Source: Porphyromonadaceae bacterium (lineage in GTDB: Bacteria > Bacteroidota > Bacteroidia > Bacteroidales > UBA12481). Taken from it: DNA of 37,590 nt. Position 1 is the first letter of the stretch. Each line of letters opens with the position of its first letter. The notes under the pieces were generated by a model. The model saw nothing but the letters and a program-made list of their open reading frames with translations. It did not search any database and was not told the origin of the DNA. Location: assembly GCA_007280905.1 (NCBI GenBank), contig QYQM01000124.1, forward strand, positions 1-37,590. Reading direction: 5' to 3'. The position numbers were made by a program, and so were the translations under genes. Shown here in pieces: positions 10,471-32,170 of the stretch.

Positions 10471-11805
10471 CTAAGAAGTAAAAAATTCTTTTTCAATTTG
10501 TTCCAGGGTTTTCCCTTTAGTTTCTATCAGATATTTGTACACGAAAATGAAGCAGAGGACACACATTACGGCATAGATCAAAAATGTATATCCCCCTTTC
10601 AGATAGACCAAGAGAATTGGAAAACTGAAAGAAACCACCAAGTTAGCTGCCCATAAGCAGAATACGGCAAGGGAAACTGCATGGCTCCTGAGATTGTTTG
10701 GAAATATTTCGCCGATCAATACCCACACGATCGGGCCCAAAGAAAGCGCAAAAAAGGCCAGATAACCCATAATAAATATCAGCACAATGATCCCTGTAAA
10801 ACTGCCGGTAAAATAGGCTATCGAGATGGCAAACAGGAAAATCCCCATCCCCACCGATCCGATCAGCATGAGCAGTCTTCGTCCGAGCCTTTCAATCAAT
10901 AATATGGATACTATGGTAAATGTCAGATTAACCAATCCCATGATCATGGTTTGAAACAAGGCTGAATCATTGCCTAAACCCGCTGATTTAAAAATGGCCG
11001 GGGCATAATACATAATCACATTAATACCTGTAACCTGCTGAAATACAGCAAGAAGTATCCCGATAAACATTAATTTTCTCATTCGGCCCTTAAACAGCTG
11101 ACTGAATTTTCCGGCAATGGATTTTTCAGTGGATTCAATGATCTCTGCCATGGCCCTGGTGGCGGATTCGGCTCCGCCAATTCTCAGCAACACCTTGAGA
11201 CCCGCTTCTTTTCTATTTTTATGAACCAGCCATCTGGGGCTCTCCGGCACAAAGAACAGCAAAACGCCAAACAAAGCAGTCGGGATAATCATGATACCCA
11301 ACATGTAGCGCCAGTTATCAATTCCGCCATACTGGTACAGGAAGTTATTGGAAACAAAAGCCAAGGCCTGGCCGGTAAACGTGGCCAATTGATTGAACGA
11401 AACCATGCGGCCCCTCCATTCCAGTGGAGAGATTTCAGAGATGTAAACCGGGCAGAGCATAGAAGCCGATCCTACCGCAACACCGGCAAGCATCCTGAAA
11501 ACGATGAATTCCCCGAAGCAATTGGACATTGCACACCCAAGAGTTGAAAAAAGGAAAAGAAATGCGGTCATAATCAGCATCTTTTTCCTTCCGAAAACCT
11601 CGCTGGGTTTGCCTGCAAAGAGGCAACCGATCATGCACCCAATGATAATGCAGCTGACGGCCCACCCTTTCTGAATTTCATCCAGGCCAAATACCTGTGG
11701 AGTTTCAATAAATTCTATAGCCCCGGAAATAACCGAGGTGTCGAAACCGAAAAGAAAACCGCCGATGGCGGCGACAAAACAAACGAAAATAAGGTATGAT
11801 TTCAT
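10471..11805 (-). CDS. MFS sugar porter (XylE/GLUT-like)
   Basis: This is a 444-residue twelve-helix major facilitator of the sugar-porter family, so a proton- or gradient-driven inner-membrane monosaccharide carrier. Landmarks in order are GFLFGFDTSVISGA in helix 1, GRKKMLIMTAF after helix 2, RMLAGVAVGSASMLCPVYISEISPLEWRGR around helices 4-5, and the PESPRWL loop signature. After these come QQVTGINVIMYYAP in helix 7, ERLGRRLLML, and the C-terminal PETKG-like ETKGKTLEQIE. The QQ..G(I/V)N..MYY motif is the classic hexose/pentose binding segment. Its ATG overlaps the stop of the upstream URO-D gene by four bases (ATGA), which implies tight translational coupling and a shared substrate. It closes the LyxK/UlaE operon. 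Confidence 0.95.
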   Translation of the reverse strand: MKSYLIFVCFVAAIGGFLFGFDTSVISGAIEFIETPQVFGLDEIQKGWAVSCIIIGCMIGCLFAGKPSEVFGRKKMLIMTAFLFLFSTLGCAMSNCFGEFIVFRMLAGVAVGSASMLCPVYISEISPLEWRGRMVSFNQLATFTGQALAFVSNNFLYQYGGIDNWRYMLGIMIIPTALFGVLLFFVPESPRWLVHKNRKEAGLKVLLRIGGAESATRAMAEIIESTEKSIAGKFSQLFKGRMRKLMFIGILLAVFQQVTGINVIMYYAPAIFKSAGLGNDSALFQTMIMGLVNLTFTIVSILLIERLGRRLLMLIGSVGMGIFLFAISIAYFTGSFTGIIVLIFIMGYLAFFALSLGPIVWVLIGEIFPNNLRSHAVSLAVFCLWAANLVVSFSFPILLVYLKGGYTFLIYAVMCVLCFIFVYKYLIETKGKTLEQIEKEFFTS

Positions 11806-13037
11806 TTTCCGTAACGATCAATCATGCTGTTCAGCTTGTTACGGTAATAGGTGAAATTTTCGAAGTTAACATCCGGAGGTATTAAATGGTCGCCGAATGG
11901 TACGTATCCACCTGATTTTAAGACAATTTCAACAGGTTCAAGAATTTCATCGATTCGCTTTTTGCCCATTACTATTTCCGATTTTGGAATACCTCCGAGC
12001 ATCTGCAGTGACGGATATTTCTTACGCACCTTAACAATATCCATCCCGCAATGCGTTTCAAAAGGATACATTCCTGTAACACCGGCTTCAATAAACAGAG
12101 GTATGAGATCGTTGCAGTCACCGTCGGTATCAAGAAGAATGACTTTTACTCCTTTTGATTTCACAAAGTCACCAATCCTTTTGATATAGGGCAGAAGAAA
12201 TTCTCTAACCATATCGGTAGAAATCATTGATCCTTTGCCAAAAGAAATGTCTTCCCATATGTGCCAGTGATCAATGGAAACCTGAGATATAACTTCTTCA
12301 AAAACGGCTAACCAGATATTGGTGAAAGTATTCAGGATGTCGTGAACCAAATCAGGTTTCATGCAATACCAGATAAAAAGGTTCTCGTAACCAATCAGGT
12401 GGGCGAGGGTACCAAAGAATCCCTGCGGATAGCCTCCGATGGCAAGGGGATAGTCGCGGTTCCTGTATTCCTCCACGAGAATATCCCAATTAGCCGGAAA
12501 ACGGTCCGTCAGATTTTTTATATTCAATCGTTCTGCCTTGAGTTTTTGCCAGCTGGTTTCGTCTGTAATAGGCCAAAAAACGGAAGTTGGAATAGTGCCT
12601 TCCTCTTTCAGGAAGATCCTTTTTACCCCATCGATGTCAATATAAGTAAGCGTCTTGTCATCTTCGCCCAGGAATTGCACATCGAACATGGGACAAAAAT
12701 GCAGGTTGACGTCTACCAAACGCTGAGTATAATCCATACCAAAATGGTGCCTGACATCAGCATCAAGAGGAAAACCCTGGGTTGGCCAATACAATCCGCC
12801 CGCCGTTACGGCGATACCATTGGGTAAGCGGTCAATTCCATTGCAGGTCCAGGCTGCGCTGTACAAAGATGAGGTTGGCGTGGTGATTCCCGGATCAAGA
12901 ATCGGGTAGTTCTTCATGGGAAGACCCTGATCATACCAATTATTCACCGTTTCACCCCAGTATCCGAATTCCCATTTTAAGGAGTGAATATTGGTATTAA
13001 AACTCATTACTTCATGAAATCTTTCTCTAAGATTCAT
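11802..13037 (-). CDS. URO-D (HemE/MtaA-like) family protein of unknown function
   Basis: This 411-residue cytoplasmic protein has the URO-D fold pattern: MNLRERFHEVMSFN at the start, then GYWGETVNNWYDQGLP, and near the C-terminus YPFETHCGMDIVKVRKKYP, MLGGIPKSEI and GGYVPFGDHLIPPDVNFENF. It is not expected to be true uroporphyrinogen decarboxylase, because it sits inside a sugar operon and belongs to the branch that includes corrinoid methyltransferases. Where zinc methyltransferases carry His-x-Cys-Gly after the VI(L) strand, this protein reads LLDTDGDCND (residues 301-310), so the canonical zinc ligand pair is not conserved. A separate THCG lies at 328-331. The gene follows the L-xylulokinase after 33 bases and overlaps the sugar porter. 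Chemistry on a sugar or sugar ether is an inference; no function is established. Confidence 0.85.
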   Translation of the reverse strand: MNLRERFHEVMSFNTNIHSLKWEFGYWGETVNNWYDQGLPMKNYPILDPGITTPTSSLYSAAWTCNGIDRLPNGIAVTAGGLYWPTQGFPLDADVRHHFGMDYTQRLVDVNLHFCPMFDVQFLGEDDKTLTYIDIDGVKRIFLKEEGTIPTSVFWPITDETSWQKLKAERLNIKNLTDRFPANWDILVEEYRNRDYPLAIGGYPQGFFGTLAHLIGYENLFIWYCMKPDLVHDILNTFTNIWLAVFEEVISQVSIDHWHIWEDISFGKGSMISTDMVREFLLPYIKRIGDFVKSKGVKVILLDTDGDCNDLIPLFIEAGVTGMYPFETHCGMDIVKVRKKYPSLQMLGGIPKSEIVMGKKRIDEILEPVEIVLKSGGYVPFGDHLIPPDVNFENFTYYRNKLNSMIDRYGK

Positions 13038-13070: not shown

Positions 13071-14597
13071 TCAATTAAAGTCCCGCCAAACCACCTCCAG
13101 GGCCGCGGAAACTTTTTTGTATAAAGCTAACTTCTTTTCATAAACCGGTATGTTGGCGGCTATCGGTTCCAGGCGGCATTTCACTTTTACCATATGTTGC
13201 GCTGCTTCAGGAAGATCCTGATAAACACCGGCTGCAACAGTGGCAGCCATTGCACAACCCAGGGTTCCAATTTCTTTGGTTTCGATGATCTCTACAGGCA
13301 AACCGAATACATCTGCAAAGATTTGCGCCCAGATCAATGAATTTGCAGCTCCCCCGCCAAGCCTGATTGCATCTGTTTTGGAACGGTTAACCACCAGTTT
13401 TTCAAGATGGATCATGTGGCAAAAAACGATACCTTCCAACACCGCCCGGATAATCTGGGATCTGGTATGATGGTTATCCAGGCCTACCAGTGATGCTTTC
13501 GCCTGAGGATTGTAATTGGAACCAAAGATATAGGGTAAAAAGATAATATTCTGCTCATCGGGAGCCACTGTGGCAGCTAGTTCATCGCAATAGTGGTAAA
13601 CATTCCTGTTCAATTCCTTAGCCCTGGCTATTTCTTCAGCTAAAAACAGTTCCAGGAACCAATCGTAGTTACTGGCCGAGGTTGGACTGGATTCCTCGAT
13701 CAGATAATATCCGGGTATACAATAGAGTGAATTCATCCTCACCGATTTATTCACTACCGGCTGTTTGGAAATATATTCATTAATACTCCAGGTACCGGCG
13801 ATAACGCATATATTATCCTCATTCACGATATCCATGGCGATGGCACAGGCATCAATATCGAACATGCCGCCTGCGAGTGGTGTACCCTCTTTAAGTCCCG
13901 TTTCCTCACTGGCACGTTTACTGACACCTCCGCAGAAGTCGGTTGATTTCTTTAACGGCGGCAGAGCTTCAAACAGATCCTCCAGTCCGAACTCAGCCAT
14001 CAGTGAACGGTCGAACTTCTCGTCTCTCAGGTTCAGCAAATTTGAACCCGAGTAATCCGTTAACTCGGCAAACGCCTGATCTGTAAGTTTAAACCGGATA
14101 TAATCTTTCACCTCGAATATCCATTTGATATTGGAGAGGATCTCAGGCTTATGGTCCTTAAACCAGCAAAGCAGTGAAACCGGCTGGCAGGCAATGATTT
14201 TCTGGTAAGTCTTTTCGAATACCCTGTCTGCTGTACCATCCTCATTCCACTTTTCAGGATACATCCACGCCCGGTTGTCAGTTGAGATGATTCCGTTGCA
14301 GCAGGGTTTATCGTCCTTGCCCCAGAGGTACAAACCCTTGCCATGGCCCGTACAGGCGATTCCTGTTATTTCACCCGCACCGAGTCCGGCTTTTGCAATC
14401 GTTTCCCGGATTACTCTGCAGTTCACCTGCCAGAGTTCATCCATATCGCGTTCCGTGTAGCCAGCCTGTGCGGTTATCATTTTGAGTTTCAACGATGAAG
14501 AGGCAATTTCGGTCCCCATGGCATCAAAGATTACCACTTTGCACATCGAACCGCCGTTATCAATTCCCATAAAATATTTTTTCATAATGTTCCTCAT
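13071..14597 (-). CDS. lyxK: FGGY carbohydrate kinase, L-xylulokinase type
   Basis: This is a 508-residue FGGY kinase that most resembles E. coli LyxK, which phosphorylates L-xylulose to L-xylulose-5-phosphate. Shared segments are FMGIDNGGSMCKVVIFDAMG at the N-terminal phosphate loop, AGYTERDMDELWQ, GKGLYLWGKDDKP followed by STDNRA, the region GGMFDIDACA, AGTWSINEYIS and SPTSASNYDW. The C-terminal adenosine loop LGGGAANSLIWAQIFADVFG is also present. Length is normal. The first ATG (14597) overlaps the stop of the epimerase gene by one base (TAATG). A second ATG at 14585 (MKKYFMG) has AGGA seven bases upstream and may be the true start. Being next to the UlaE-type epimerase strongly supports the L-xylulose assignment over D-xylulose. 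Confidence 0.88.
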   Translation of the reverse strand: MRNIMKKYFMGIDNGGSMCKVVIFDAMGTEIASSSLKLKMITAQAGYTERDMDELWQVNCRVIRETIAKAGLGAGEITGIACTGHGKGLYLWGKDDKPCCNGIISTDNRAWMYPEKWNEDGTADRVFEKTYQKIIACQPVSLLCWFKDHKPEILSNIKWIFEVKDYIRFKLTDQAFAELTDYSGSNLLNLRDEKFDRSLMAEFGLEDLFEALPPLKKSTDFCGGVSKRASEETGLKEGTPLAGGMFDIDACAIAMDIVNEDNICVIAGTWSINEYISKQPVVNKSVRMNSLYCIPGYYLIEESSPTSASNYDWFLELFLAEEIARAKELNRNVYHYCDELAATVAPDEQNIIFLPYIFGSNYNPQAKASLVGLDNHHTRSQIIRAVLEGIVFCHMIHLEKLVVNRSKTDAIRLGGGAANSLIWAQIFADVFGLPVEIIETKEIGTLGCAMAATVAAGVYQDLPEAAQHMVKVKCRLEPIAANIPVYEKKLALYKKVSAALEVVWRDFN

Positions 14598-15442
14598 TAT
14601 GGTTTTATTTCATTAAACATTGATCTTATGAATTCATTGGCGAAATTCAGTTGATATTGCCAATCCGGATTGCCCGTATACCAAAACTCACCTACAAATA
14701 TTCGTACGCCCAGTTCAAAAGCAATTTTTATTGCATTCCCGAAATCTACATGTCCCTGACCATAAGGCACTTCCCGGAAAACTTCCGGAACCGTTTCCTT
14801 CAGGTGGAAGGCAACCAGGTGACCATTTGCCGATCGCAGATCCTCTGATACGGTATGACCATACAAAACAGCCGCATTGGTTATGTTTCCCAGGTCGGGA
14901 TATACCTGAAGATAAGGTGATTGGATCAGATCGACATAATGCATGGCTTTATGAACGGTATTCATGAATTCTGTTTCCATGGTTTCAAACGCAAGGGTTA
15001 CCCCTTTTTTTGCAGCCATATCTGAGCTTTTTCTCAGGTTTTCCAAAAACAGTCTCCTGGTATTTTCATTGAATGGCTGGTAATACTCATCGTAACCGGC
15101 TATCTGAATGATTCTTATACCGGTATCTGCCGCAAAATCTATGGCATCCGACATGATTTCCATGCCTCGGACTCTTATTTTATCGTTCTCACTGCCAATA
15201 GGATACTTTCGATGACCGCTCAAACACATGGTCATGATTCGGGTCCCCGTTGCCCAGGTTGATTCAACAAGTTCCTGCCGCTGCTGCCTGTTCCATTTCA
15301 GCCGGCTTAACTTTTCATCCGTTTCATCGATACTGATCTCCAGAAAATCAAATCCTGCCTTTTTTGCTTCTGTCAGCTTTTCTTTGATCGACAGGGAATT
15401 GGGCATTGATTTCTCATAGAGACCCAGAAAATAATCATTCAT
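14597..15442 (-). CDS. ulaE: L-xylulose/L-ribulose-5-phosphate 3-epimerase (UlaE/SgbU family)
   Basis: This 281-residue cytoplasmic TIM-barrel enzyme interconverts L-xylulose-5-phosphate and L-ribulose-5-phosphate. It parallels E. coli UlaE along its length: LGLYEKSMP, GFDFLEISIDETDEKLSRL, CLSGHRKYPIGSE, IQIAGYDEYYQ, TLAFETME, VYPDLGN, FHLKETVPEVFREVPYGQG and FVGEFWY. The expected metal ligands are visible as Glu153, Asp183, His213 and Glu252. The start codon follows the stop of the lipoprotein gene with no gap, and the end overlaps the kinase start. The product would feed an L-ribulose-5-phosphate 4-epimerase (AraD/UlaF type), which is not in this window and must lie elsewhere. Confidence 0.92.
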   Translation of the reverse strand: MNDYFLGLYEKSMPNSLSIKEKLTEAKKAGFDFLEISIDETDEKLSRLKWNRQQRQELVESTWATGTRIMTMCLSGHRKYPIGSENDKIRVRGMEIMSDAIDFAADTGIRIIQIAGYDEYYQPFNENTRRLFLENLRKSSDMAAKKGVTLAFETMETEFMNTVHKAMHYVDLIQSPYLQVYPDLGNITNAAVLYGHTVSEDLRSANGHLVAFHLKETVPEVFREVPYGQGHVDFGNAIKIAFELGVRIFVGEFWYTGNPDWQYQLNFANEFIRSMFNEIKP

Positions 15443-17860
15443 TTAATGAGTTGTTTCGATTGATAATGGATTATTGAGTTTGACTTCAGGAATATTAATC
15501 CAAACCCAGGCCCTATCGCCACTCACAAAGCATTGATAATCATTTTTCTTCTTATTAATGATTACGCTGATTCTTTTAGTACTTGCAGGAAACGGACCCA
15601 ATCTGAAGTTTAGATTCTTTAAATCGCCTCCGGTGATCGTTTTTAGTGTTACTGATTGTTCTCCGTTTTTCGGGTAAGTCATGGTCATATGTATGCTGCA
15701 GGTATAGCTCTTGCCATCACTATATACAGTAACCGGATAATCGGAAATACGCATGCTCCAGTTTTCGGGCAATCGTGGCATAATCCGTAAGACTCCCGGA
15801 ACATTATCATCAATCCCGGCGCAGAGCAATATAGTATTTACCGTTTCGGCCTGTTGAAATCCATTACCCAGATCACCTTGCCTCCTGATGATCCCCCTTT
15901 TTAAATCGATGCTTGCGCACTCCGGTACAATATAGGGTTTGGGTAATCGTGGCGAATAGCAGAGGTGGGCCAGATTTATCATCCATTGGGTGGCATCATT
16001 CATTTTGTCGAGCAGCATGGCTGTTTGAGTGAGCATATCATGGTCATATCCAATGCCTTTGGGTCCATAAAAACCAGGTCTGGAATCCCTGTTTTTCATA
16101 TAAGTATTCCGTGAGCGTTCCATCCATTCGGCCGAAAGTTTATTGGTCAGATCGAAGCCATAATATTCCTTTAAAATTGTCAAAATATTTTCATGATAAA
16201 ACCCTGCTTTCTGCCATATTCTTCCATAGGTGGAATCGTCCGCCGGAAAATACACCTGCATGCTTTTTTGAAGTTGCGATGCACTGTTCCTCCATTTCAG
16301 GGAATAATCCGCAGCGTCTATTGAATCAGCCATCTCAGCATACATGAGCAGCCCCAGATAACAGGGGAAATTGCAATACAGGGTATAATCATTCATGCCT
16401 GCCTCACTCTCAGCGTAAAGGAGTCCGTATTTCGAGAATGATAATCCGGGATTAGCGAAAGACCAGGTTAGGTATTCAGCAGCTTCTTTAAGATAATTCC
16501 ATTTGTCTGATACCCATTGCTTGTTTCTGCCGCTGTTTTGCCAGACCTTCCAGTGGGATATCATAGAGTGACCCTGTCCATCCGTTTCAGGATTTCCGAA
16601 ATCCTTATAATGGCTGCCAAATTTGTCATGGGTATATTGAGTGGGCCATCCCACGCCGGTTAAAACATGAGAATAAACCAGGGGCTTATTGGCAATCACC
16701 GTCCAGTGCCCCGGAATTTTTTCCCCTCCAAGCTGAAGTGAAGGGTACATCTCCGGGAAATACATCAGTTGTTTATCGAGAAAATCCAGTGCCCGGTTTG
16801 ATTCCTCAAAATAATTCAGATCCGGGAGAATCATAATGGTTTTATTCCGGGTATAATAACAGTCGTAATAGGACCCGGAATTGTTTTCACCGATTGTGTT
16901 GGTCCATGTACCAAAGCCGTCGTAAAACCACGACGGTGCATTTAATGTGGATTCATGCACAATTCCATTCGGGTCCACCCGGCTTACCTGGTCGCTCAAA
17001 TTATAATGGAATACGCTGCTGATAATATCGGCTTCAGGTTCGCCCGAAAAAATAATAGAAGGCCCTTTGTAGGCCGGAGGAATATCAACAGATGCAACTG
17101 ACTGATAATCTGATTTAAAAGTATACAGTAGATGCATTAACCTTCGCAGGTTATTTTTAATAACTGGAGGATATGTGTTCAGTGTATCAATGGTATGATT
17201 AATGAAGAAACCTTCTTCATCAGTCGTATCAATTTTCGCAGACGCATTGCCAGCCATTGATTTCCCGCTCAATTCCCGGTCAAACCGGATATCCGGTTGT
17301 TTCAAATATCCCTCTTTAAGCTGATTATCAAAGTAATCAATGCTTTTTACTTTGCTTTTTCGGAGCCGTATTCTTAAAGTATAATTATAGTCGTCCTTAT
17401 ATAGATTATTAAGGAATATGGTGCTGTTCAGGAGCTTTCGGGCACTGGTGTCGGAGAGAAACGGCTCTTTTCCGGATATCCAGTTATTTTTAAACCAGAG
17501 CGTATATCCATAAACAAGGGGGATAGTATCTACTTTTTCATTTTCATAGGCAATTCTGAATTCACCGCCGTAATCGCCGATCATTCTGAAATTTTTGCTT
17601 TCGGTTGTTCCCCAGTCTGTTGATCCTTTATCAATATTATCGGTACCGGTGGAAATAAATAAATAGGTTGCAGTGATTCGTTCAGATTCTTCAAATTCCC
17701 ACTTTCTAACCATCTTCAATTCAGCTGTTGCAGAAGATAGCAATTCAATGGTCAGCAGCTGATCAGGCTCAGGAACAATGGATTTTTCCCTCCCGGTGCA
17801 ACCTGTAATCATGATTATACAAGAAATGAATAGCCCAATAAAAAGTGTACTATTTTTCAT
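15443..17860 (-). CDS. Six-hairpin glycosidase-like lipoprotein
   Basis: This 805-residue lipoprotein has signal MKNSTLFIGLFISCIIMITG with lipid-attachment Cys21 (ITGC). The first ~300 residues look beta-rich. From about 330 to 690 there is an alpha-toroid-like region with TWTNTIGENNSGSYYDCYYT, SHVLTGVGWPTQYTHDKFG, MNDYTLYCNFPCYLGLL and QGDLGNGFQQAETVNTILL, followed by a beta-sandwich tail. This layout matches six-hairpin glycosidases (the clan that includes GH63, GH65, GH78 and GH95), but I cannot place it in a numbered family. The acid/base pair cannot be assigned safely. Its start overlaps the cupin gene stop by four bases, and the epimerase follows immediately. An extracytoplasmic glycosidase translated between two cytoplasmic sugar enzymes implies that it releases their substrate. 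Confidence 0.7.
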   Translation of the reverse strand: MKNSTLFIGLFISCIIMITGCTGREKSIVPEPDQLLTIELLSSATAELKMVRKWEFEESERITATYLFISTGTDNIDKGSTDWGTTESKNFRMIGDYGGEFRIAYENEKVDTIPLVYGYTLWFKNNWISGKEPFLSDTSARKLLNSTIFLNNLYKDDYNYTLRIRLRKSKVKSIDYFDNQLKEGYLKQPDIRFDRELSGKSMAGNASAKIDTTDEEGFFINHTIDTLNTYPPVIKNNLRRLMHLLYTFKSDYQSVASVDIPPAYKGPSIIFSGEPEADIISSVFHYNLSDQVSRVDPNGIVHESTLNAPSWFYDGFGTWTNTIGENNSGSYYDCYYTRNKTIMILPDLNYFEESNRALDFLDKQLMYFPEMYPSLQLGGEKIPGHWTVIANKPLVYSHVLTGVGWPTQYTHDKFGSHYKDFGNPETDGQGHSMISHWKVWQNSGRNKQWVSDKWNYLKEAAEYLTWSFANPGLSFSKYGLLYAESEAGMNDYTLYCNFPCYLGLLMYAEMADSIDAADYSLKWRNSASQLQKSMQVYFPADDSTYGRIWQKAGFYHENILTILKEYYGFDLTNKLSAEWMERSRNTYMKNRDSRPGFYGPKGIGYDHDMLTQTAMLLDKMNDATQWMINLAHLCYSPRLPKPYIVPECASIDLKRGIIRRQGDLGNGFQQAETVNTILLCAGIDDNVPGVLRIMPRLPENWSMRISDYPVTVYSDGKSYTCSIHMTMTYPKNGEQSVTLKTITGGDLKNLNFRLGPFPASTKRISVIINKKKNDYQCFVSGDRAWVWINIPEVKLNNPLSIETTH

Positions 17861-19056
17861 TTGACAACAAATTGATTATTCGGTCCAAAATGTTTGAGGA
17901 TGACCATGGGTTCGAACTGGCTGTTATTGGTTATTTTAACGCCATTCCTGGCTGCATCCTCAGATACAAAATACTCATCGGAACTGGCCTGCCCAAATCT
18001 CAGCATGACAGCGGTTTCCGCATCATAAACACCAAATTTGCCATGACCCTGGATGATGATGCATCCGTAAGCCGCCTGATCTTTTATGATGACAGTTTGC
18101 CTTGGGTGAATGGTAAGTTCCTTAGCTGCAATATATTCATTGCCGTATACGATCCATTTTTCATCATATCCGGCACCTGAAGGAATCTGGATGGGAGGCC
18201 TGAAATAATGCTTTTTGTAATTCGGATCGATATTCTTTTCCCAATCCATCAGGCTGATCACATAATCAATATCCCGTTTTTTATCTGCCGGACAATTTTC
18301 AACCAGGAATTCATATGGATATACCTCGTTTGAGGTGACATTCTCATACACTGAATTCACATCGCTGTTCCACTGAGGTTCGTAAGTGAGATAGGAGCCG
18401 GGCGCATGCACAATGCCCGGCGGGGTATACCATCCCGTGCCCAGTTCGATGCGGTAGGCTCTGGATAATTCGGTAATCCGGGTATCGCCTTTTTCGTAAT
18501 TAAGCAGCCGTTCCCTAACCATTTCCCTGGTAACATCGGGGTCGAATCCAAAATAGGTATGGGGAAAATCACCGGGATAATTATTCATTTGGGGCGGATA
18601 ATAATAGGCTTCAGGCTTTCCTAACCGGCCCACCTTTTTTGCCGCTTCAAAACCGAGATGGAGATGATGAAACAAAGGTGCCTGGAAATCGAAAAATTTT
18701 GAATACATGGGCCAGGTGCCGTATTTATTGAACAGTTCATGACCTATAATGGAATTCTTTAATTCACCGACGGTATCTTTTAATGTGAATTTTTGCTCCA
18801 GTTTCTCTGAAAAGGGCAAAACATAGCTGATGCCTTCATCTTTGGGCGCCAGCTCGCCGTTCATGCATGGGATCACTGAAGAGAACCAGCGTTCTTTTAT
18901 GGAGCCCCTTTGTGTGCCAAGGGCATAATAATCATGAGGGTGCAGTCTTAGTCTCAGGCCTGCCTTACTAAACCGGCGAGGCACAAAAACAGGTACCAGA
19001 CGTAAGATACCCTGACCTTGTTCAAAGGTTCCCTTTATCAATTTATTTTCTGACAT
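17857..19056 (-). CDS. Cupin-fold, mannose-6-phosphate-isomerase-like protein
   Basis: This is a 399-residue cytoplasmic protein with no signal peptide. The core (about 120-225) resembles class I phosphomannose isomerase. HHLHLG (His131, His133), GKPEAYYYPP (Glu149) and PPGIVHAPG (His217) give a plausible metal-binding set, and TYFGFDPDVTREMVRERL parallels the isomerase helical insert. A second cupin-like half (about 300-395) contains AYGCIIIQGHGKFGVYDAE. It probably isomerises a sugar or sugar phosphate. As first gene of the packed LyxK/UlaE operon, an aldose-to-ketose step yielding a ketopentose would make a coherent pathway, since cupin D-lyxose isomerases exist; that is inference. It is preceded by a 215-base gap holding a palindromic repeat, and overlaps the next gene by four bases. 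Confidence 0.75.
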   Translation of the reverse strand: MSENKLIKGTFEQGQGILRLVPVFVPRRFSKAGLRLRLHPHDYYALGTQRGSIKERWFSSVIPCMNGELAPKDEGISYVLPFSEKLEQKFTLKDTVGELKNSIIGHELFNKYGTWPMYSKFFDFQAPLFHHLHLGFEAAKKVGRLGKPEAYYYPPQMNNYPGDFPHTYFGFDPDVTREMVRERLLNYEKGDTRITELSRAYRIELGTGWYTPPGIVHAPGSYLTYEPQWNSDVNSVYENVTSNEVYPYEFLVENCPADKKRDIDYVISLMDWEKNIDPNYKKHYFRPPIQIPSGAGYDEKWIVYGNEYIAAKELTIHPRQTVIIKDQAAYGCIIIQGHGKFGVYDAETAVMLRFGQASSDEYFVSEDAARNGVKITNNSQFEPMVILKHFGPNNQFVVK

Positions 19057-19271: not shown

Positions 19272-22200
19272 TTACTCTTCCAATTCGGCCGTTACGGCTA
19301 CAATCCCGAACGCCGGCATCACACCGATAGTTTCAAAAATCAGGTAATCGAGTTCACCCGGTTTGTTCAGGTTGATTTCAATAATACTCATCATGCATGA
19401 TTTGGTAACAACAGGCAGGCTGGTTGACCACCATCTGGGCTGAGGAAAGGCAGGCGGGTTTCCTTCTTTCCAGTCGGGCATATCCGGATTCAATAACGCC
19501 AGCAGCTCAAACCGGTCGGGCCGCGGTTCACGAAAGGATGCAAAACTCGTGGGATTCTTATCCGGCACCCAATAATCCACATCGCCCGGGTAATTCAAGG
19601 TTCGGGTATACACAATCTCCTTATTGCCGTAGGCGGTGATCCGGGCAACCGGTGCAAATATGTTATGGTTGTCGACAAAAGGTATAACCAGCAGGTAGAG
19701 CTTCTTATATTTCGTCCTTTCGAGGTCGAGTTTATACGAAACCTTCCCTGCCAGATGGGAAACCGGGATGAAATTAGTTCCCGGTATTTGAAATTTCAGT
19801 CCGGGGATCTGTGCCGCCTCAATTTCTTTTACATTTTTAAGTGCCCACATGGGTTTAGGCACTCCATAATCGGAAAATGTAAAAAAGATGTGCGGAAATC
19901 CGGGCATGATCCGAATGGTGGTCCAAAGGGTATCTGGCATCAAATCCTTTGCCGGCAGTTTAATGGAAACAAACCGAGGGGCATTAACCGGGTTTTCTAG
20001 GGTAAAATGAACGCTGACAGGAGCCTCACCCGGCAGGATGAATGTTGCAATATTATCACCGGACGAAAGAGTTGAGTTTAATGGCAACGTGAGGTCAATC
20101 AGCTGGTCTGAGCGGGATGCGAGCTTCACCGGCACCAGGAAATGGGTATTGGGCAGAGTTATACCTGCTTGCCCGGTGAACGATTTCCCCGTGTTATTCC
20201 TTACCTTAAGCCGGATAGTATTCTTGCCGGTTTGGTTGGCATTTCCCACAGAAGCGACTTCAAATCTGGGTAAAATGTTCAGATCCACTGCAGCAATAAA
20301 GGGCGATCCATCCGTTGTGCGGCAATCCAGAAAAAACGTCCTCCTTGAAAAATTGAGCAGTCCGAGCTGGTTGAACGACTGATAGGGGTCGAGTAAACGG
20401 GCCTGGACTTTTGACGAAAAAGAGGAGGATGAATTTGTTTTAACATTTTCCAGTACGCCATATCGATCCATAACGCGCTCAATAGTAGCCCCTTCCACTG
20501 AAATCTCTAGTTTTTCACCGGACGCTATGGATTGGGGAGCGTTGACTTTATAGATAACCGGTTCAAATTCAATCTTCAGTGCGGATTTTGCGGTATGCGG
20601 AACATCAAAGCAGAGGACGATATGATTAACACCCGGAATAATGGTGTAATGAACTTCTTTATTATTTACCGTGCACTTCACAATTTTCGATACCGGCAGC
20701 CGCCACCTGACTTTCAGCGGCAAATCCTTTGAGGAAGAGATTACATAGTTGATTTGATTTTGCTTTCTGGTATAATCGACTTGGAAATCTGGGAGATTCA
20801 GCTTCGCATAAGGCCAATGGTCGGGAAGCGAGGGTGAAACTTCCACATATCCCTCCGGGGCATGCACATTGATCCCGATCAGGGCTTCTGTTACTGCAAC
20901 AAGGTATAATCCTGCCGGCGGGGTAAAGTAGGCCGGTGTTGGTTCGGGACCGGTTTCGGGCCAGGAACCGCGGTGGTTAATGTCCTGGGCCCAGTCGGCC
21001 ATGGCCTTCAATGGGCGCCAGGTTTCATTGTTCAATCCAGATTTTGAAAAACCTTCGGCGGCCCAGGGCTGCTGGGCCTCGCCGCACTGCATTCCCCAGG
21101 TGCAGGCAATGCCGGTGGCATGCCAGGGAAAGTTATTGGATAGGAAGACGGCACCGTTTTCTCCGGTCAAACGGTCCCTTAAGTGACGCAGACCGGAATA
21201 CTTGTCATATTCATCAACCAGGTCATATATAATGGGATAGAGATAGGTCTGGTACTGCCCATCGGGCATTAACACTCCGGTTGGATCCTTATAATAGCCG
21301 AATCTGCCCAGGTCATTCATCCATAATTCCTTGTACAGTTTGCCGTGAACCATTGCAGCTTTGTTAAACCAAAGCGATGCTGTAGCGGAATCACCGGCAA
21401 ATTTTGATAACTCTGCACGGGTCATGAACATATTATACAGCTCCATGGAAGGCACTGAACCGTTGTAAGGATTGGCCAGAAAATCCTCCTGGTTTCCGAT
21501 CTGAAGTCCCCATGAGGGCAGGAAATCCCCGTCTTTGTCATATTCCTTCAAAGTTTGACCGATGACAGTATCCACATAGGGCATGATTAGTTTGGCAAAC
21601 TCCTTGTCGCCGGTATAATTGAGATAATGGCGCACCTGCCAAACCCAGTATGAATTGGACCCGCCGAAATCCCTTTTTGTAGCCTTATTGGGCATAAACT
21701 GCGGGACCGCACCATTTTTCAGCAAATTCTGAGCATGCTCGATAATGCAGGATTTCGACCGGTCGGTCTGACCTATCAGGTCGGCCGCTGCACCCACCTG
21801 CATATGCCACAGGGCCAGCCAGTGGTGGAGGCACTCGCCCCAGCCAAAAGGCTCCAGCCAGTTGTATTCCAGGTTATAGAGTGCCGACGCAAAAGCCTCA
21901 TTCATAACTGGTTCCGGCGTATTGAGTGAGGTCTTATACAATTCCTCATAATACTTTTTAACCCGGGTTCGCTCGGCAGCCGCATTTAGTTTTCTCAGGT
22001 TCTCCATGTCGCTGGCCTGATCTGAAAAAACCGTCAGCACATATCCTGAACCTTTAGCCATGCGTACATAGACCTGCTTGTTTTGATCACCGATTTTCCC
22101 TGCAACCACGGGTTCCGAACCCTTAACAACCACATGTAATCCATCTTTACCGCTCAGAAAAACAATACTTTGATCATCAATCCGGGTGAATTTATCAATG

Positions 22201-22712
22201 GTAATAACGGTGTCTTTGGCCATAAAGGAGGTGGCAAACTCGGAAAACAGGTTCAGTGTCCGGCCTTTGCCAAGAAGAACCAACACCTCGCGGGCCGGGG
22301 AAGTCTGAATATCGTACAACGCCGCTCCTGTCCATGTTTTGGCTCCCCTGCCTACGAGCAGCGGAGTAATGCGGGTGGTAATTCTTGTGCTTTCATAGGT
22401 AAAGGTGGCTTCTACCCCGCCCGGGATATCTTCAACCTTTATATTGCTGAATGACGATGGGTAAATGATCTTTCCGCCCACCGAAAGACAGGGCATAAAT
22501 TTGACCAGAAAATTATAATTCTGATAATCGAAGGTTTTTACCGGATAGGTCATCGCCGCCGAACTGGGCATAGCTTCACCGGTAAATACTACCGAATAAT
22601 GGTATCCGGCCATCCGCTTGTTCAGTACCTGTTGCTGCTGCTGTGCGCTAACTGACGACAATTGTGCGATGATCAGAAGAGCGAACAAAAAAATGGAACG
22701 AGATTGATTCAT
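19272..22712 (-). CDS. Large secreted six-hairpin glycosidase-like protein (1146 residues)
   Basis: This secreted protein has signal peptide MNQSRSIFLFALLIIAQLSS cleaved near VSAQ, then a glutamine run. Regions by inspection are a beta-rich N-terminal domain (about 30-240) and an alpha-toroid-like domain (about 265-620) with FASALYNLEYNWLEPFGWGE, HHWLALWHMQVGAAADLIG, FGGSNSYWVWQVRHYLNYTG and GWPETGP-type segments (RGSWPETGPEPTPAYFTPP). Long beta-sandwich regions follow to the C-terminus, including an NEW3-like stretch near 790-880. The toroid resembles six-hairpin glycosidases, but no CAZy family can be named with confidence. It begins 11 bases after the ABC binding protein, so it is co-transcribed with the transporter. 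Length is well above most relatives because of the C-terminal sandwiches. Confidence 0.65.
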   Translation of the reverse strand: MNQSRSIFLFALLIIAQLSSVSAQQQQQVLNKRMAGYHYSVVFTGEAMPSSAAMTYPVKTFDYQNYNFLVKFMPCLSVGGKIIYPSSFSNIKVEDIPGGVEATFTYESTRITTRITPLLVGRGAKTWTGAALYDIQTSPAREVLVLLGKGRTLNLFSEFATSFMAKDTVITIDKFTRIDDQSIVFLSGKDGLHVVVKGSEPVVAGKIGDQNKQVYVRMAKGSGYVLTVFSDQASDMENLRKLNAAAERTRVKKYYEELYKTSLNTPEPVMNEAFASALYNLEYNWLEPFGWGECLHHWLALWHMQVGAAADLIGQTDRSKSCIIEHAQNLLKNGAVPQFMPNKATKRDFGGSNSYWVWQVRHYLNYTGDKEFAKLIMPYVDTVIGQTLKEYDKDGDFLPSWGLQIGNQEDFLANPYNGSVPSMELYNMFMTRAELSKFAGDSATASLWFNKAAMVHGKLYKELWMNDLGRFGYYKDPTGVLMPDGQYQTYLYPIIYDLVDEYDKYSGLRHLRDRLTGENGAVFLSNNFPWHATGIACTWGMQCGEAQQPWAAEGFSKSGLNNETWRPLKAMADWAQDINHRGSWPETGPEPTPAYFTPPAGLYLVAVTEALIGINVHAPEGYVEVSPSLPDHWPYAKLNLPDFQVDYTRKQNQINYVISSSKDLPLKVRWRLPVSKIVKCTVNNKEVHYTIIPGVNHIVLCFDVPHTAKSALKIEFEPVIYKVNAPQSIASGEKLEISVEGATIERVMDRYGVLENVKTNSSSSFSSKVQARLLDPYQSFNQLGLLNFSRRTFFLDCRTTDGSPFIAAVDLNILPRFEVASVGNANQTGKNTIRLKVRNNTGKSFTGQAGITLPNTHFLVPVKLASRSDQLIDLTLPLNSTLSSGDNIATFILPGEAPVSVHFTLENPVNAPRFVSIKLPAKDLMPDTLWTTIRIMPGFPHIFFTFSDYGVPKPMWALKNVKEIEAAQIPGLKFQIPGTNFIPVSHLAGKVSYKLDLERTKYKKLYLLVIPFVDNHNIFAPVARITAYGNKEIVYTRTLNYPGDVDYWVPDKNPTSFASFREPRPDRFELLALLNPDMPDWKEGNPPAFPQPRWWSTSLPVVTKSCMMSIIEINLNKPGELDYLIFETIGVMPAFGIVAVTAELEE

Positions 22713-22723
22713 GGTATGGAGTT

Positions 22724-23644
22724 CTATTTATTCAGATTTTCTTTTGTAATCAATTGAAAGGGGATGTAATTGGTATGATCGACCCGTTTGCCTTCGGATA
22801 ACTTGACCGCGAGTTCCAGTGCGAGGATGCCTTGTCCGCGCGCATCCTGGAAAACAGTTGCGCATAATTTTCCATCTTTCACAGCCCTGAGTGCATCGGG
22901 AATGGCATCGATACCAATAACCAGTATATCATTTTGCTTGCCGGCGGCTTCAATGGCTTTTTGCGCACCAAGGGCCATTTCATCGTTCTGAGCAATCACG
23001 GCCTGCAGCGGTTTGCCAGTCGATAACCAGTTTTCCATGAGTTCCAGGCCCTGGGTCCGGTCCCAGTTACCGGATTGGTCGAAAATGATTTTTAGATCGG
23101 GATATCCTTTTAAAATTTCCAAGATCCCTTCAGTACGCTGTATTTCAGCTGAATGCCCATTGGGGCCCCGTATTAATGCTAAGTCTCCTTTGCCTTTCAA
23201 TAATTGGGATATGTATGTTGCAGCAATCCTGCCGGCCTCCTGGTCATTTGAACCGACGTAAGCATCTGCTTTATCCAGATTAACCACTACGGCATTGACC
23301 ACCACAATGGGTTTGCCTTCTCTTTTGGCAATGGATACCACCGGTGCCGATCCATATCGGTCGAAAGGATTCAGGATGATGGCATCCACATCGAGTGCCA
23401 GAAAATTCTCTACCTGCGAAATCTGATTTTCGGCCTTTCCCTGGCCATCCACTTCAATCAGTTTGACATTCAGCTCTTTGGCCCTATTTCGCATGGCATC
23501 CTGAATATTGATAACAAACTCGTTTTGGAGGTTCTGATAGGTTACACCGATTGTATGACTGTATTGAACCGATGGGTGCCGGTTGCAGCACAGACTCAGT
23601 ATAATAACTATCACTAAGGAAACGGGTTTTATTAACTTGCTCAT
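22724..23644 (-). CDS. CUT2-type sugar ABC transporter, periplasmic binding lipoprotein (RbsB-like)
   Basis: This 306-residue type I periplasmic binding protein has an N-terminal hydrophobic stretch ending LSLCCNRH, a non-canonical but plausible lipobox (Cys22 or Cys23). Typical RbsB landmarks follow: GVTYQNLQNEFVINIQDAMR, DVDAIILNPFD, YVGSNDQEAGRIAATYI, LIRGPNGHSAEIQRTEG, QAVIAQNDEMALGAQKAIE, VIGIDAIPDALRAVKDG and ATVFQDARGQG. The Asn/Asp pair in QNDEMA and the Asp in GIDAIPDA are usual sugar contacts. The ligand is a monosaccharide (ribose, galactose, xylose or autoinducer-like sugars in relatives). The start abuts the permease stop with no gap. Confidence 0.93.
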   Translation of the reverse strand: MSKLIKPVSLVIVIILSLCCNRHPSVQYSHTIGVTYQNLQNEFVINIQDAMRNRAKELNVKLIEVDGQGKAENQISQVENFLALDVDAIILNPFDRYGSAPVVSIAKREGKPIVVVNAVVVNLDKADAYVGSNDQEAGRIAATYISQLLKGKGDLALIRGPNGHSAEIQRTEGILEILKGYPDLKIIFDQSGNWDRTQGLELMENWLSTGKPLQAVIAQNDEMALGAQKAIEAAGKQNDILVIGIDAIPDALRAVKDGKLCATVFQDARGQGILALELAVKLSEGKRVDHTNYIPFQLITKENLNK

Positions 23645-24583
23645 TTACCGTGAATTTTTCTTTTCAAGAACCACCGCCAGCAGAATGATTATTCCTTTCA
23701 CCACCAGTTGCCAGTAGGATGAAACGTTCAGCAGATCAAGGCCGTTGTTCATGACACCGATAATCAGAACGCCGACAATGGTTCCAAAAATGGTACCCAC
23801 GCCGCCGGTCAGCCTGGTTCCTCCGATCACCACAGCAGCAATGGCATCCAGCTCATATCCCTGTCCGGTAGCCGGGGATCCCGACATCACTCTTGAGGAA
23901 AGCACAATACCTGCCAAACCCGACAGAATGCCGGCCAGGGTGTACACCCAAATGGTGATTTTACCCGTTTTAATGCCCGAAAGCGCTGCAGCTGTGGTAT
24001 TTCCGCCGGTAGCGTATACGTGCCTGCCAAATACAGTTTTGGATAGGAGCACCCAGCCTATGAAGATGATTATGATAAATATAATGACCGGCAAGGGTAT
24101 TCCGAGAAAATAGCTGCCTCCGATTTTGTTGTAGGAATCGCTCAGTTCAATTACGGGTCGTCCGTTGGTATATACCAGTGCGGCACCTCTGGCAATGGTC
24201 ATCATGGCCAGGGTCATGATAAATGGGGCTATTTTCCTTTTTGCGATGACAAAACCATTAAGGAACCCGCAAAGGCCTCCGACAGCCAATCCTGCAAAAA
24301 CCGGTACGATCAGCGGATAATCGCCGGAATGCGCAAATGAAGCGGCAATTACTGCTGCCAGTGCAATCACCGAACCTACCGAAAGATCAATGCCTGCCAG
24401 GATGATCACGAATGTCATCCCCACCGCCACAATTCCGTTTACGGATGTTTGGCGGAGAATATTCATGATATTGGTTGTCTTTAAAAATGCCGGAGACAGC
24501 AGCGACAAGAGAAGGATAAGGATCAGAAAGGCTACTAAGATCCCATAACGCGACAGGTATTGAAAAATTTGTTTTTGCTTCAT
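23645..24583 (-). CDS. CUT2-type sugar ABC transporter permease (RbsC-like)
   Basis: This 312-residue inner-membrane permease of the RbsC/XylH/AraH family has around ten hydrophobic segments. The signature GIVAVGMTFVIILAGIDLSV near residue 50 and the cytoplasmic coupling segment GNTTAAALSGIKTGKITIWV near 195 are both present. ELDAIAAVVIGGTRLTGGVGTIFGT near 245 is the most conserved family block. One permease gene is normal for CUT2 systems because it works as a homodimer. It follows the ATPase after 26 bases and abuts the binding-protein gene. Together the three genes make a complete importer. Confidence 0.95.
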   Translation of the reverse strand: MKQKQIFQYLSRYGILVAFLILILLLSLLSPAFLKTTNIMNILRQTSVNGIVAVGMTFVIILAGIDLSVGSVIALAAVIAASFAHSGDYPLIVPVFAGLAVGGLCGFLNGFVIAKRKIAPFIMTLAMMTIARGAALVYTNGRPVIELSDSYNKIGGSYFLGIPLPVIIFIIIIFIGWVLLSKTVFGRHVYATGGNTTAAALSGIKTGKITIWVYTLAGILSGLAGIVLSSRVMSGSPATGQGYELDAIAAVVIGGTRLTGGVGTIFGTIVGVLIIGVMNNGLDLLNVSSYWQLVVKGIIILLAVVLEKKNSR

Positions 24584-24609
24584 CGGTTTTAGCTATTTTG
24601 ACAACCTGT

Positions 24610-26109
24610 TCAGTTCATTATGGCAGCGAGAATATGTTCCTGGTTAAAACCGGAACGGTCAAACTCCCGTGATATCTTTCCTTTCCGGAAAGCAATTATT
24701 CTTTCGCACAATCCCATCAGTTCGGTCATTTCAGAAGAGACCATCAGGATTGACATGCCCTCCATGGCCAGTTTATTAATAAGCTGGTAAATCTCAGATT
24801 TTGCACCAATATCGATGCCCCGTGTGGGCTCATCCAGTAAAAGGACAGAAGGTTCAACCAGTAGCCATTTGGCCAGTACCACTTTTTGCTGATTACCTCC
24901 GCTCAGGTTACTGATTAATTGGTTCATAGTACCTGACTTTACCTGCAATTGGCTCGCAATGTAGCCGGCTGCCTGTTTTTCTTGAGTTCGATGAATCATT
25001 CCTCCGAAACCGGCAAACCTGGGCAAGACTGCCAGGGTTGTGTTAAACATCACTGTACCAAGCAGATTCAACCCGGCCAGCTTCCGGTCCTCAGGTACCA
25101 GCGCGAATCCGTTATTCATGGCATCGCCCGGCGAATGGATATGGACCCGTTTCCCCATTACCAGAATTTCTCCCGAATCTGCCGGGGGAAATCCAAAAAT
25201 CGATTTGATAAATTCAGATCTCCCCGACCCTACCAGTCCGGCTATTCCCAACACCTCACCTTTCCTGACACTGAGACTGATATCGATAAAAGCATTTTGC
25301 CGCGATAGGTTTTTTACTTCCAGAACCGTATCGCCAGGAATTGAAGTTCTATCGGGAAACAATTCCTTCAGTTCACGGCCAACCATTTTGTGTATCAATT
25401 CATCGCGGGTTATTTCGGTGGAATATCCCGTAGAAATCCATTTCCCGTCTCTTAATACTGTGATGCGGTCGCTTATCCGGAATACCTCTTCCATTTTATG
25501 GGAAATGTAGATAATTGCAACTCCCTGCTTTTTAAGACGTTGTAAAACCTCAAACAGAAAGTCAGCATCGATGGAAGAGATTGCCGACGTAGGTTCATCC
25601 AGGATTAGGATAGCGGCATTGCAAGATATCGCTTTAACGATTTCGACCAGCTGCATTTCGGAGATACTGAGCATTCCCATTTTCGTATGAGGATCGATAT
25701 TCAGGTGAAATTCCTGAAGGATGATTCCGGCCCTGGAATTGAGTTCCTCTTTTTTAACCATTCCCAATCGGGAAGGCTCGCGACCGGCAAAGATGTTTTC
25801 AGCCACCGTCATTTCCGGAAAATTGTTCAGTTCCTGATGCACCATGGCAATACCTGATTGCAAAGCCTGACGTTCATTTTGAATTTCCACCGGCTGCCCA
25901 TTTAACAAGATTTGCCCGCTATCCTTTTGATAGATACCGGCCAGTATTTTCATCAGGGTAGATTTACCGGCGCCGTTTTCGCCCATCAGGGAATGAATTT
26001 CACCGCGGCAGACATTCAGGCTGACCTCATCAAGCGCAACCGTTCCGGGGAATGATTTGGATAATCTTTGAATTTCAAGAAAAGGACTGATGTCATCAGA
26101 ATTATTCAC
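24610..26109 (-). CDS. CUT2-type sugar ABC transporter, double ATPase (RbsA/MglA-like)
   Basis: This 499-residue fused tandem ATPase has a first half with Walker A GENGAGKS (43-50), the signature variant LSISEMQ (147-153) and Walker B LILDEPTSA (Asp171, Glu172). The second half has a degenerate Walker A GLVGSGRSEF, signature LSGGNQQKVVLAKWL and Walker B LLLDEPTRGIDIGAK. One canonical and one degenerate site is the norm in this family. The start codon is GTG at 26109, 15 bases after the DUF6259-like gene's stop. The order ATPase, permease, binding protein, followed by a secreted glycosidase, places the transporter squarely inside the degradation locus. Confidence 0.96.
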   Translation of the reverse strand: MNNSDDISPFLEIQRLSKSFPGTVALDEVSLNVCRGEIHSLMGENGAGKSTLMKILAGIYQKDSGQILLNGQPVEIQNERQALQSGIAMVHQELNNFPEMTVAENIFAGREPSRLGMVKKEELNSRAGIILQEFHLNIDPHTKMGMLSISEMQLVEIVKAISCNAAILILDEPTSAISSIDADFLFEVLQRLKKQGVAIIYISHKMEEVFRISDRITVLRDGKWISTGYSTEITRDELIHKMVGRELKELFPDRTSIPGDTVLEVKNLSRQNAFIDISLSVRKGEVLGIAGLVGSGRSEFIKSIFGFPPADSGEILVMGKRVHIHSPGDAMNNGFALVPEDRKLAGLNLLGTVMFNTTLAVLPRFAGFGGMIHRTQEKQAAGYIASQLQVKSGTMNQLISNLSGGNQQKVVLAKWLLVEPSVLLLDEPTRGIDIGAKSEIYQLINKLAMEGMSILMVSSEMTELMGLCERIIAFRKGKISREFDRSGFNQEHILAAIMN

Positions 26110-31114: not shown

Positions 31115-31984
31115 TCAAAACAGCTTTGACATATTTATTTTATCTCCGGTGTGGTCATCCTGAATGTCCCGGATTGAATCCTGGATGTTTTCGAGCAGAC
31201 TCCCGGCACCACGGTACAATGCCAGAATGTTTTCCATCGGAGTACCTACCTGCAGGGCATGAGTGGGACCCAAAAAAAGTCCACCTTCGGGGGTGGTGGG
31301 TTGCACAACATCATACACATCCAGGCCCATTTCTATCAACCGGGTTAAAAAAGCCCTGGCACAACCGCACATATGCATCATGGTTCTAGCTCCGTAACCA
31401 TGCACCATTTCAAAATACTTCCTGAACTTTGGGGCAAAGTGTTTTTCGAAGGTGTCAAAATCAATAATCTGGGCGGTCTGAGTACCCAGATCTTCTCCGA
31501 TGTGGGTAAAATCTATGAGGCCTCCGGCAGCCTGCAGCACCTGCTCATGCAATTCATAATAAAACCTGAAGCGGGCTTCCATGATTTCCAGATAAACCGG
31601 GTCATCGGTTATCAGATCGATCAAAACTTTTTCGGTTCCCCTTGCCCGGGCAATGCTGTTGATAAAGTCCATGTCGCCGGCTGTACCGAAGCATATCGCA
31701 TATCCGTGTTCCAGGATTTTTACGCATTGCTGCCTGATGGTGGAGTAATCGAACCAAGTGGCCTGCGGAAAATGGGATCGGTCCAGTTCATCCACTGAAT
31801 CAACATTCGCAAAAGGAAGATAGCAAGCCTCCAGGTATTTTCCTCCTTCAAAGGCAGCATACTTGTAACGTTCTCCCCAATATCCCTCAATGCTTCCATC
31901 GGGAAAGGTCCTTAGTTCCGGACCGGTATAAACAGGTTCAACATAACGGAAATCATCGCCTACTACCCGTAGCAGCTGTTCCAT
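31115..31984 (-). pseudogene. URO-D family methyltransferase-like gene, N-terminus deleted
   Basis: From MEQLLRVVGDDFRYVEPVY (ATG at 31984) to the stop at 31115 this is about 290 residues of a URO-D family protein whose usual first ~60-80 residues are missing. It retains EGYWGERYKYAAFEGGKYLE, FIHIGEDLG-like FTHIGEDLGTQ and TMMHMCGCARAFLTRLIEMG. The last contains the His-x-Cys-Gly signature used for zinc in corrinoid methyltransferases. It also keeps GPTHALQVGTPMENI and a natural-looking C-terminus. Upstream DNA belongs to another gene in a different frame. It is distinct from the intact URO-D gene at 11802-13037, which lacks the HxCG signature. It may still be translated from the internal ATG, but a functional barrel is unlikely. 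Confidence 0.7.
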
Positions 31985-32170
31985 ATTGGTTATAAATTTT
32001 ATCAAAATTCGCATCGAGCTTTTGAAAGATGGCTATATCCTGTTCAGGGCTTGTCATGCCGCACCACATGGGAACCAGGTTATCATAGGGAATGAACATA
32101 TCTTCGATTTTTTCAGAACCTTTTGCTATGTTCCTCATTTGCACATAGTAACCTTCCCTGCCTGCGATTC
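31953..32170 (-). pseudogene. Out-of-frame internal fragment, probably from the same six-hairpin glycosidase
   Basis: The frame reads GREGYYVQMRNIAKGSEKIE, then MFIPYDNLVPMWCGMTSPEQ and AIFQKLDANFDKIYN before running into unrelated codons and a stop at 31953. The phrase style resembles a late toroid helix of six-hairpin glycosidases. The upstream piece (ending PWCSESQ) is in another frame and meets it at about 32165. The downstream piece (URO-D) is in a third frame and meets it near 31987. It is therefore a scrap trapped between two junctions. Confidence 0.5.

Follow-up and report, generated by a model that had tools for sequence, protein, structure and literature searches.

The 37,590-nucleotide window, that is, the whole stretch of DNA analysed (contig QYQM01000124.1 of a Porphyromonadaceae bacterium), as a whole forms a polysaccharide locus of the Bacteroidota type, carrying SusC/SusD-type genes and rhamnosidases; two rhamnosidase-like proteins are encoded. 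At positions 11802..13037 of the minus strand (the original prediction was silent on the strand), an uninterrupted ORF encodes a 411-aa protein of the uroporphyrinogen decarboxylase (URO-D) family, as had been proposed. Its PF01208 score was 38.4 bits, above the gathering score of 23.9. The gene overlaps by 4 bases (ATGA) with that of an XylE-like MFS sugar porter (10471..11805, minus), in agreement with the earlier reading. On the other side, 33 bases separate the URO-D gene start from the gene of an FGGY pentulose kinase (13071..14597, minus). This neighbor had been called L-xylulokinase; the profile match places it in the FGGY kinases, but the L-xylulokinase identity, though plausible, is unproved, and the best NCBIfam match, xylulokinase, scored 230.8 bits, under the model cut-off of 380.

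Further genes follow on the minus strand. A TIM barrel similar to L-ribulose-5-phosphate 3-epimerase of the UlaE type (14597..15442) scored over the cut-offs of NCBIfam subfamily and equivalog models. The operon also includes an 805-aa lipoprotein of unassigned family (15443..17860), with neither a Pfam nor a PDB sequence match, which is likely to be glycoside-acting, judging by operon context only, and a 399-aa protein with a weak profile match, a possible sugar-isomerase cupin (17857..19056). An 1146-aa protein (19272-22712) had no Pfam or PDB sequence match; together with the 805-aa protein it is a candidate for new glycoside hydrolase families. Profile matches identified a monosaccharide ABC transporter consisting of binding protein, permease and ATPase (22724..26109).

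Fold and superfamily

The Pfam match to PF01208 covers only the C-terminal half of the protein. An AlphaFold2 model built from 44 relatives had a pLDDT of 95.9 and a pTM of 0.93, and this predicted structure matched UroD chains over its whole length (Z 23.2, rmsd 3.6-3.7, 317-326 residues aligned) and the methyltransferase 4ay7 of Methanosarcina mazei (Z 20). The protein is therefore a member of the URO-D superfamily. Sequence searches against PDB were less informative: phmmer returned nothing relevant, and a profile search reached 4ay7 alone (E 0.04). The solved structures of MtoB and CdmB were absent from the fold matches, which has no bearing on kinship.

The nearest NCBIfam models were those of the MtaA/MtbA/CmuA type, although the scores were far under the cut-offs (TIGR01463, 32.2 bits against 235.4; NF004889, 30.5 against 244). 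These matches to methylcobalamin:CoM methyltransferase models were weak yet consistent, being found in 44/44 clade members. A HemE or another heme-pathway enzyme would share the fold (Z 23 to UroD), but sequence identity to HemE is only 10-15%, the hemE equivalog model TIGR01464 was not matched at E 0.001, and another URO-D of the same genome is the clear HemE-like one, with 332 bits on PF01208 vs 39 for the protein studied here. The view that the protein is not a characterised HemE is thus upheld, and a place in heme synthesis is so improbable that it can be set aside. The protein is neither HemE nor an MtaA/CmuA methyltransferase.

A clade with a rebuilt active site

GTDB genomes supplied 70 relatives; the first alignment comprised 63 sequences, among which D303, D305, G306, E327, R338, K352, D383 and H384 were invariant. 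Across 76 clade sequences, D256, E262, D263, D303, D305, G306, E327, R338 and D383 were identical in all, and K352 and H384 were kept in 75. The motif D303-T-D305-G306 (12120..12131, minus) lies at the position of the His-x-Cys-Gly site; residues 303-310 read DTDGDCND and align with the HxCG of MtaA, so the replacement reported in the original prediction is correct. E327 (12057..12059, minus) comes after the strand that follows D303/D305. K352 (11982..11984, minus) is a clade-specific lysine in a GGIxK motif, the one sequence that does not carry it having a gap. D383-H384 (11886..11891, minus) occupies the position of the third zinc ligand, which is Cys in MtaA-type proteins. The zinc ligands of MtaA, MtbA and CmuA (His-x-Cys and a distal Cys) are thus replaced by D303-x-D305 and D383-H384.

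For comparison, 58 other URO-Ds were taken from the same loci and genomes as the clade members. His was present at position 303 in 58/58, nearly all had Cys or Asp at 305, position 327 was mostly Gln, and position 352 was variable; the HICG proteins of the own genome have GC where the clade has D383-H384. The nearby THCG (residues 328-331; 12045..12056, minus) had been pointed out as well. It is not a conserved site: 25% of relatives have H329 and 54% have C330, and a relocated zinc site was rejected on that ground. In a maximum-likelihood tree the clade formed one side of a branch with an SH-aLRT support of 97, which persisted (support 94) when eight of the signature columns were removed. Relatives of 50-81% identity span about a dozen phyla. 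The difference in the active site is genuine and rigidly maintained (signature in 75-76 of the 76 sequences), and what emerges is a sharply defined, previously unnamed clade of a known superfamily.

The missing HxCG had been taken as a sign of a new reaction, which is not supported. Because a His-x-Cys site is a typical feature of MtaA-type proteins, a protein that lacks it need not catalyse a reaction other than methyl transfer. CdmB of Acetobacterium dehalogenans, a methyltransferase of the UroD superfamily, binds no zinc, and the Moorella O-demethylase is likewise without it (PMC13222342). Since such zinc-free enzymes exist, corrinoid methyl transfer stays the leading explanation. The suggestion of ether or C-C bond cleavage on a sugar holds in its first half if a methyl ether is cleaved via a corrinoid; for C-C cleavage no evidence was found.

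Sugar operons and corrinoid genes around the relatives

Sugar transport or catabolism genes were found in 42/61 close-relative loci, and within 2.5 kb in 39/61. The link to sugar operons is therefore real and recurring. The outcome named beforehand as refuting, relatives scattered without sugar genes, is nevertheless seen in part: in the Humimicrobiaceae-type Actinomycetota (L091-L095, L111) the URO-D gene has a constant place among housekeeping genes, with aro/efp/nusB on one side and an L,D-transpeptidase gene on the other, and no sugar genes. The commonest neighbors were homologues of monosaccharide ABC transporters, with an ABC permease in 26/61 loci; a sugar porter homologue was present in 9/61. 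The 399-aa protein recurred beside the URO-D gene in 13/61 loci, with 44-77% identity to homologues in other phyla. It had no Pfam or NCBIfam match, its profile match to mannose-6-phosphate isomerases was weak (E 0.01), and its AlphaFold model was poor (pLDDT 66). It probably represents an undescribed sugar-isomerase-like cupin family that travels with the URO-D gene.

Two operon styles recurred. The pentose style, to which the window belongs, combines the 399-aa cupin candidate, a ketose-epimerase-like barrel, a ribulokinase/xylulokinase-like kinase and a sugar porter. In the rhamnose style, a rhamnulokinase-like kinase is accompanied by rhamnose mutarotase and a xylose/rhamnose-isomerase-like barrel. 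The URO-D gene of Mariniphaga sediminis strain SY21 comes after RhaT. At one locus (L060:7093-8280) a CobW-type GTPase gene was observed between the cupin candidate and an FGGY kinase; CobW-type genes also adjoin corrinoid protein genes in Mariniphaga (L163) and at L160.

The tight operon tie to kinase, epimerase, porter and cupin candidate speaks for the main rival to methyl transfer, a metal-dependent sugar isomerase, epimerase, lyase or sugar-acid decarboxylase. In such an enzyme, Mg, Mn or Zn would be coordinated by D303, D305 and D383/H384, with K352, E327 and R338 serving as acid/base groups and substrate ligands; in the window operon it could feed L-xylulose to the kinase. The clade-wide set D303, D305, E327, R338, K352, D383 and H384, unlike the residues of the corrinoid-linked URO-Ds, would suit an isomerase, lyase or decarboxylase of this kind, the CobW-type GTPase of the L060 operon is of a kind used in metal delivery, and most loci have no corrinoid gene near. 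We nevertheless regard a sugar enzyme without methyl transfer as rather unlikely, and the loci that do carry corrinoid genes argue against it.

An MtbC-like corrinoid protein or MttB was encoded at most two genes away from 8/76 clade members, which belong to Actinomycetota, Chloroflexota and Spirochaetota; none was so near in 68/76. Examples are L070 (URO-D, then corrinoid protein, then MttB), L087, L088, L083 and L072. Two distant members show related arrangements, one overlapping a corrinoid gene (L144) and the other lying near an MtrH-like methyltransferase and MetF (L143). Because most genomes have only few corrinoid-domain genes, the 8/76 adjacency looks well above random placement, by informal judgement. 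In several of these operons, genes for rhamnose mutarotase, rhamnulokinase and a rhamnose-isomerase-like barrel are present too, and the first sugar steps are therefore covered without the URO-D enzyme. That such operons still carry one or two clade genes beside corrinoid genes tells against an isomerase-like role, which also leaves the adjacency to corrinoid protein and MttB genes unexplained. On the other side, the 68/76 relatives with no near corrinoid or MttB gene and the housekeeping context of the Humimicrobiaceae-type genes count against a methyltransferase.

At genome level, the corrinoid domain PF02607 was present in 35/36 clade genomes and RACo in 35/37, and the own genome carries RACo (C43); the background for RACo was 17/149 relatives, 55/247 Spirochaetota and 81/244 genomes of a second phylum. 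In Spirochaetota, RACo was found in 8/8 clade genomes vs 47/239 others (Fisher 4e-6), a comparison in which clade members occur in 8/247 genomes, three of them with close relatives, too few for an independent test. Among Spirochaetota with at least two URO-D matches, RACo was present in 26/27, whether or not the clade was. The co-occurrence was consequently rejected as clade-specific proof: RACo tracks the expanded URO-D superfamily as a whole, and its link to the clade could come from other URO-D genes of the same genomes.

The window itself encodes no corrinoid protein, RACo or MT2. Elsewhere in the own genome, a different contig encodes a stand-alone MtbC-like protein, backed by PF02607 and PF02310, with another URO-D and a homocysteine S-methyltransferase as neighbors, and RACo lies on a separate contig. 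A search of the own genome with PF00809 found no MtrH-type methyltransferase, only a 301-aa frame and a 1233-residue frame that also bears corrinoid domains (MetH-like). With 13 URO-D matches and one such stand-alone corrinoid protein, the genome's content suggests that a single corrinoid carrier could serve many methyltransferases.

Proposed reaction

We propose that the protein is a candidate MT1-type substrate:corrinoid methyltransferase of a new URO-D clade, demethylating O-methyl sugars, and give this reading a probability of about one half. MT1 demethylation is the simplest account of the fold, the relatives, the corrinoid links and the sugar operons; from these we infer methyl transfer, a sugar as the substrate, and use of the corrinoid protein of the own genome. 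Acids, Lys, Arg and His would line the active site, in contrast to the His/Cys or the hydrophobic cavity of characterised members. An O-methylated sugar would be bound, probably a pentose in the window operon and, for other operons, a 6-deoxyhexose (rhamnose, for instance). A bound metal or general acid would activate the sugar hydroxyl as leaving group, and Co(I) of the corrinoid protein would take the methyl. On chemical grounds, sugar alkoxides leave poorly, which would account for a site rich in metal or acid groups where CdmB has an aromatic cavity. The freed sugar would enter the isomerase, epimerase and kinase steps encoded alongside. In the own genome, the methyl would pass to the stand-alone corrinoid protein, which RACo would reactivate; as the homocysteine S-methyltransferase is encoded beside that protein, the methyl could end in methionine, as in MtgBCDE (PMC12478193).

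The methyl donor may also be something other than a sugar, such as a methoxylated aglycone released by rhamnosidase, a methyl glycoside, or a quaternary amine used with MttB-type partners. The characterised URO-D enzymes that cleave methyl ethers act on aromatic ones (PMC8630106, PMC13222342), MttB-type genes adjoin several relatives, and the window encodes the two rhamnosidase-like proteins. The conserved site, however, is highly charged, unlike the aromatic and hydrophobic cavity of CdmB (PMC13222342), and thus fits a sugar better, and the genes that keep recurring nearby are those of monosaccharide transporters and kinases. A non-sugar donor is accordingly doubtful, and less to be expected than a metal-dependent sugar enzyme.

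The proposed sugar demethylase can be compared with several known systems. MtvB, OdmB, VdmB, MtoB and CdmB belong to the same superfamily, some of them without zinc, and work with a partner corrinoid protein and a RACo-type activator (PMC13222342); the clade has these near some relatives or in the host genomes. It differs in residing in sugar operons, where the corrinoid gene is usually not adjacent. The D-x-D-G motif, E327, K352 and D383-H384 also differ from the corrinoid-linked URO-Ds compared, an alignment that does not include the five named enzymes. MtgBCDE demethylates glycine betaine with homocysteine as acceptor, and resembles the own genome's corrinoid contig in its modular corrinoid protein and homocysteine methyltransferase; its donor enzyme is of the MttB type, however, and its substrate is a quaternary amine (PMC12478193). 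In porphyran degraders, a cytochrome P450 oxidatively demethylates 6-O-methyl-D-galactose (PMC10033563). That route would share the task of taking a methyl ether off a sugar before catabolism, but it depends on oxygen, releases formaldehyde and uses an unrelated enzyme family (PMC10033563).

Polysaccharides of plants, algae and microbes contain O-methyl sugars. If these were demethylated anaerobically via a corrinoid, their use in sediments, bogs and guts would be explained, and polysaccharide loci would be tied to one-carbon metabolism; a metal-dependent sugar enzyme would instead bring a type of reaction new to the URO-D fold. In both cases a function would be assigned to a clade whose sole annotation is 'uroporphyrinogen decarboxylase family'. 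The clade is real, intact and conserved, and a role in anaerobic sugar demethylation is probable. More tentatively, and with somewhat less confidence than in the enzyme assignment, this may be the first oxygen-independent, vitamin-B12-dependent stripping of O-methyl sugars, in which a hard-metal or general-acid set would expel the alkoxide and the methyl would go to methionine or folate, the system having probably spread horizontally among polysaccharide degraders, most of them anaerobic, of about a dozen phyla. In the literature searched we found no direct report of corrinoid demethylation of methyl sugars or of URO-D genes in rhamnose or PUL loci; the enzymatic removal of a sugar methyl ether described there is the P450 route for 6-O-methyl-galactose.

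The window carries a second URO-D homologue at 31115-32014 (minus), of the HMCG...TH type and without its N-terminus. It shows a 47-residue in-frame gap relative to a spirochaete relative (52% identity), and is a decayed gene or an assembly joint. Beside it, at 32135-33796 (minus), an N-terminal part resembling GH42 is joined to a piece of a different glycoside-hydrolase-like protein; this piece, 63% identical to L044 8371-9993, stops abruptly after about 150 residues.
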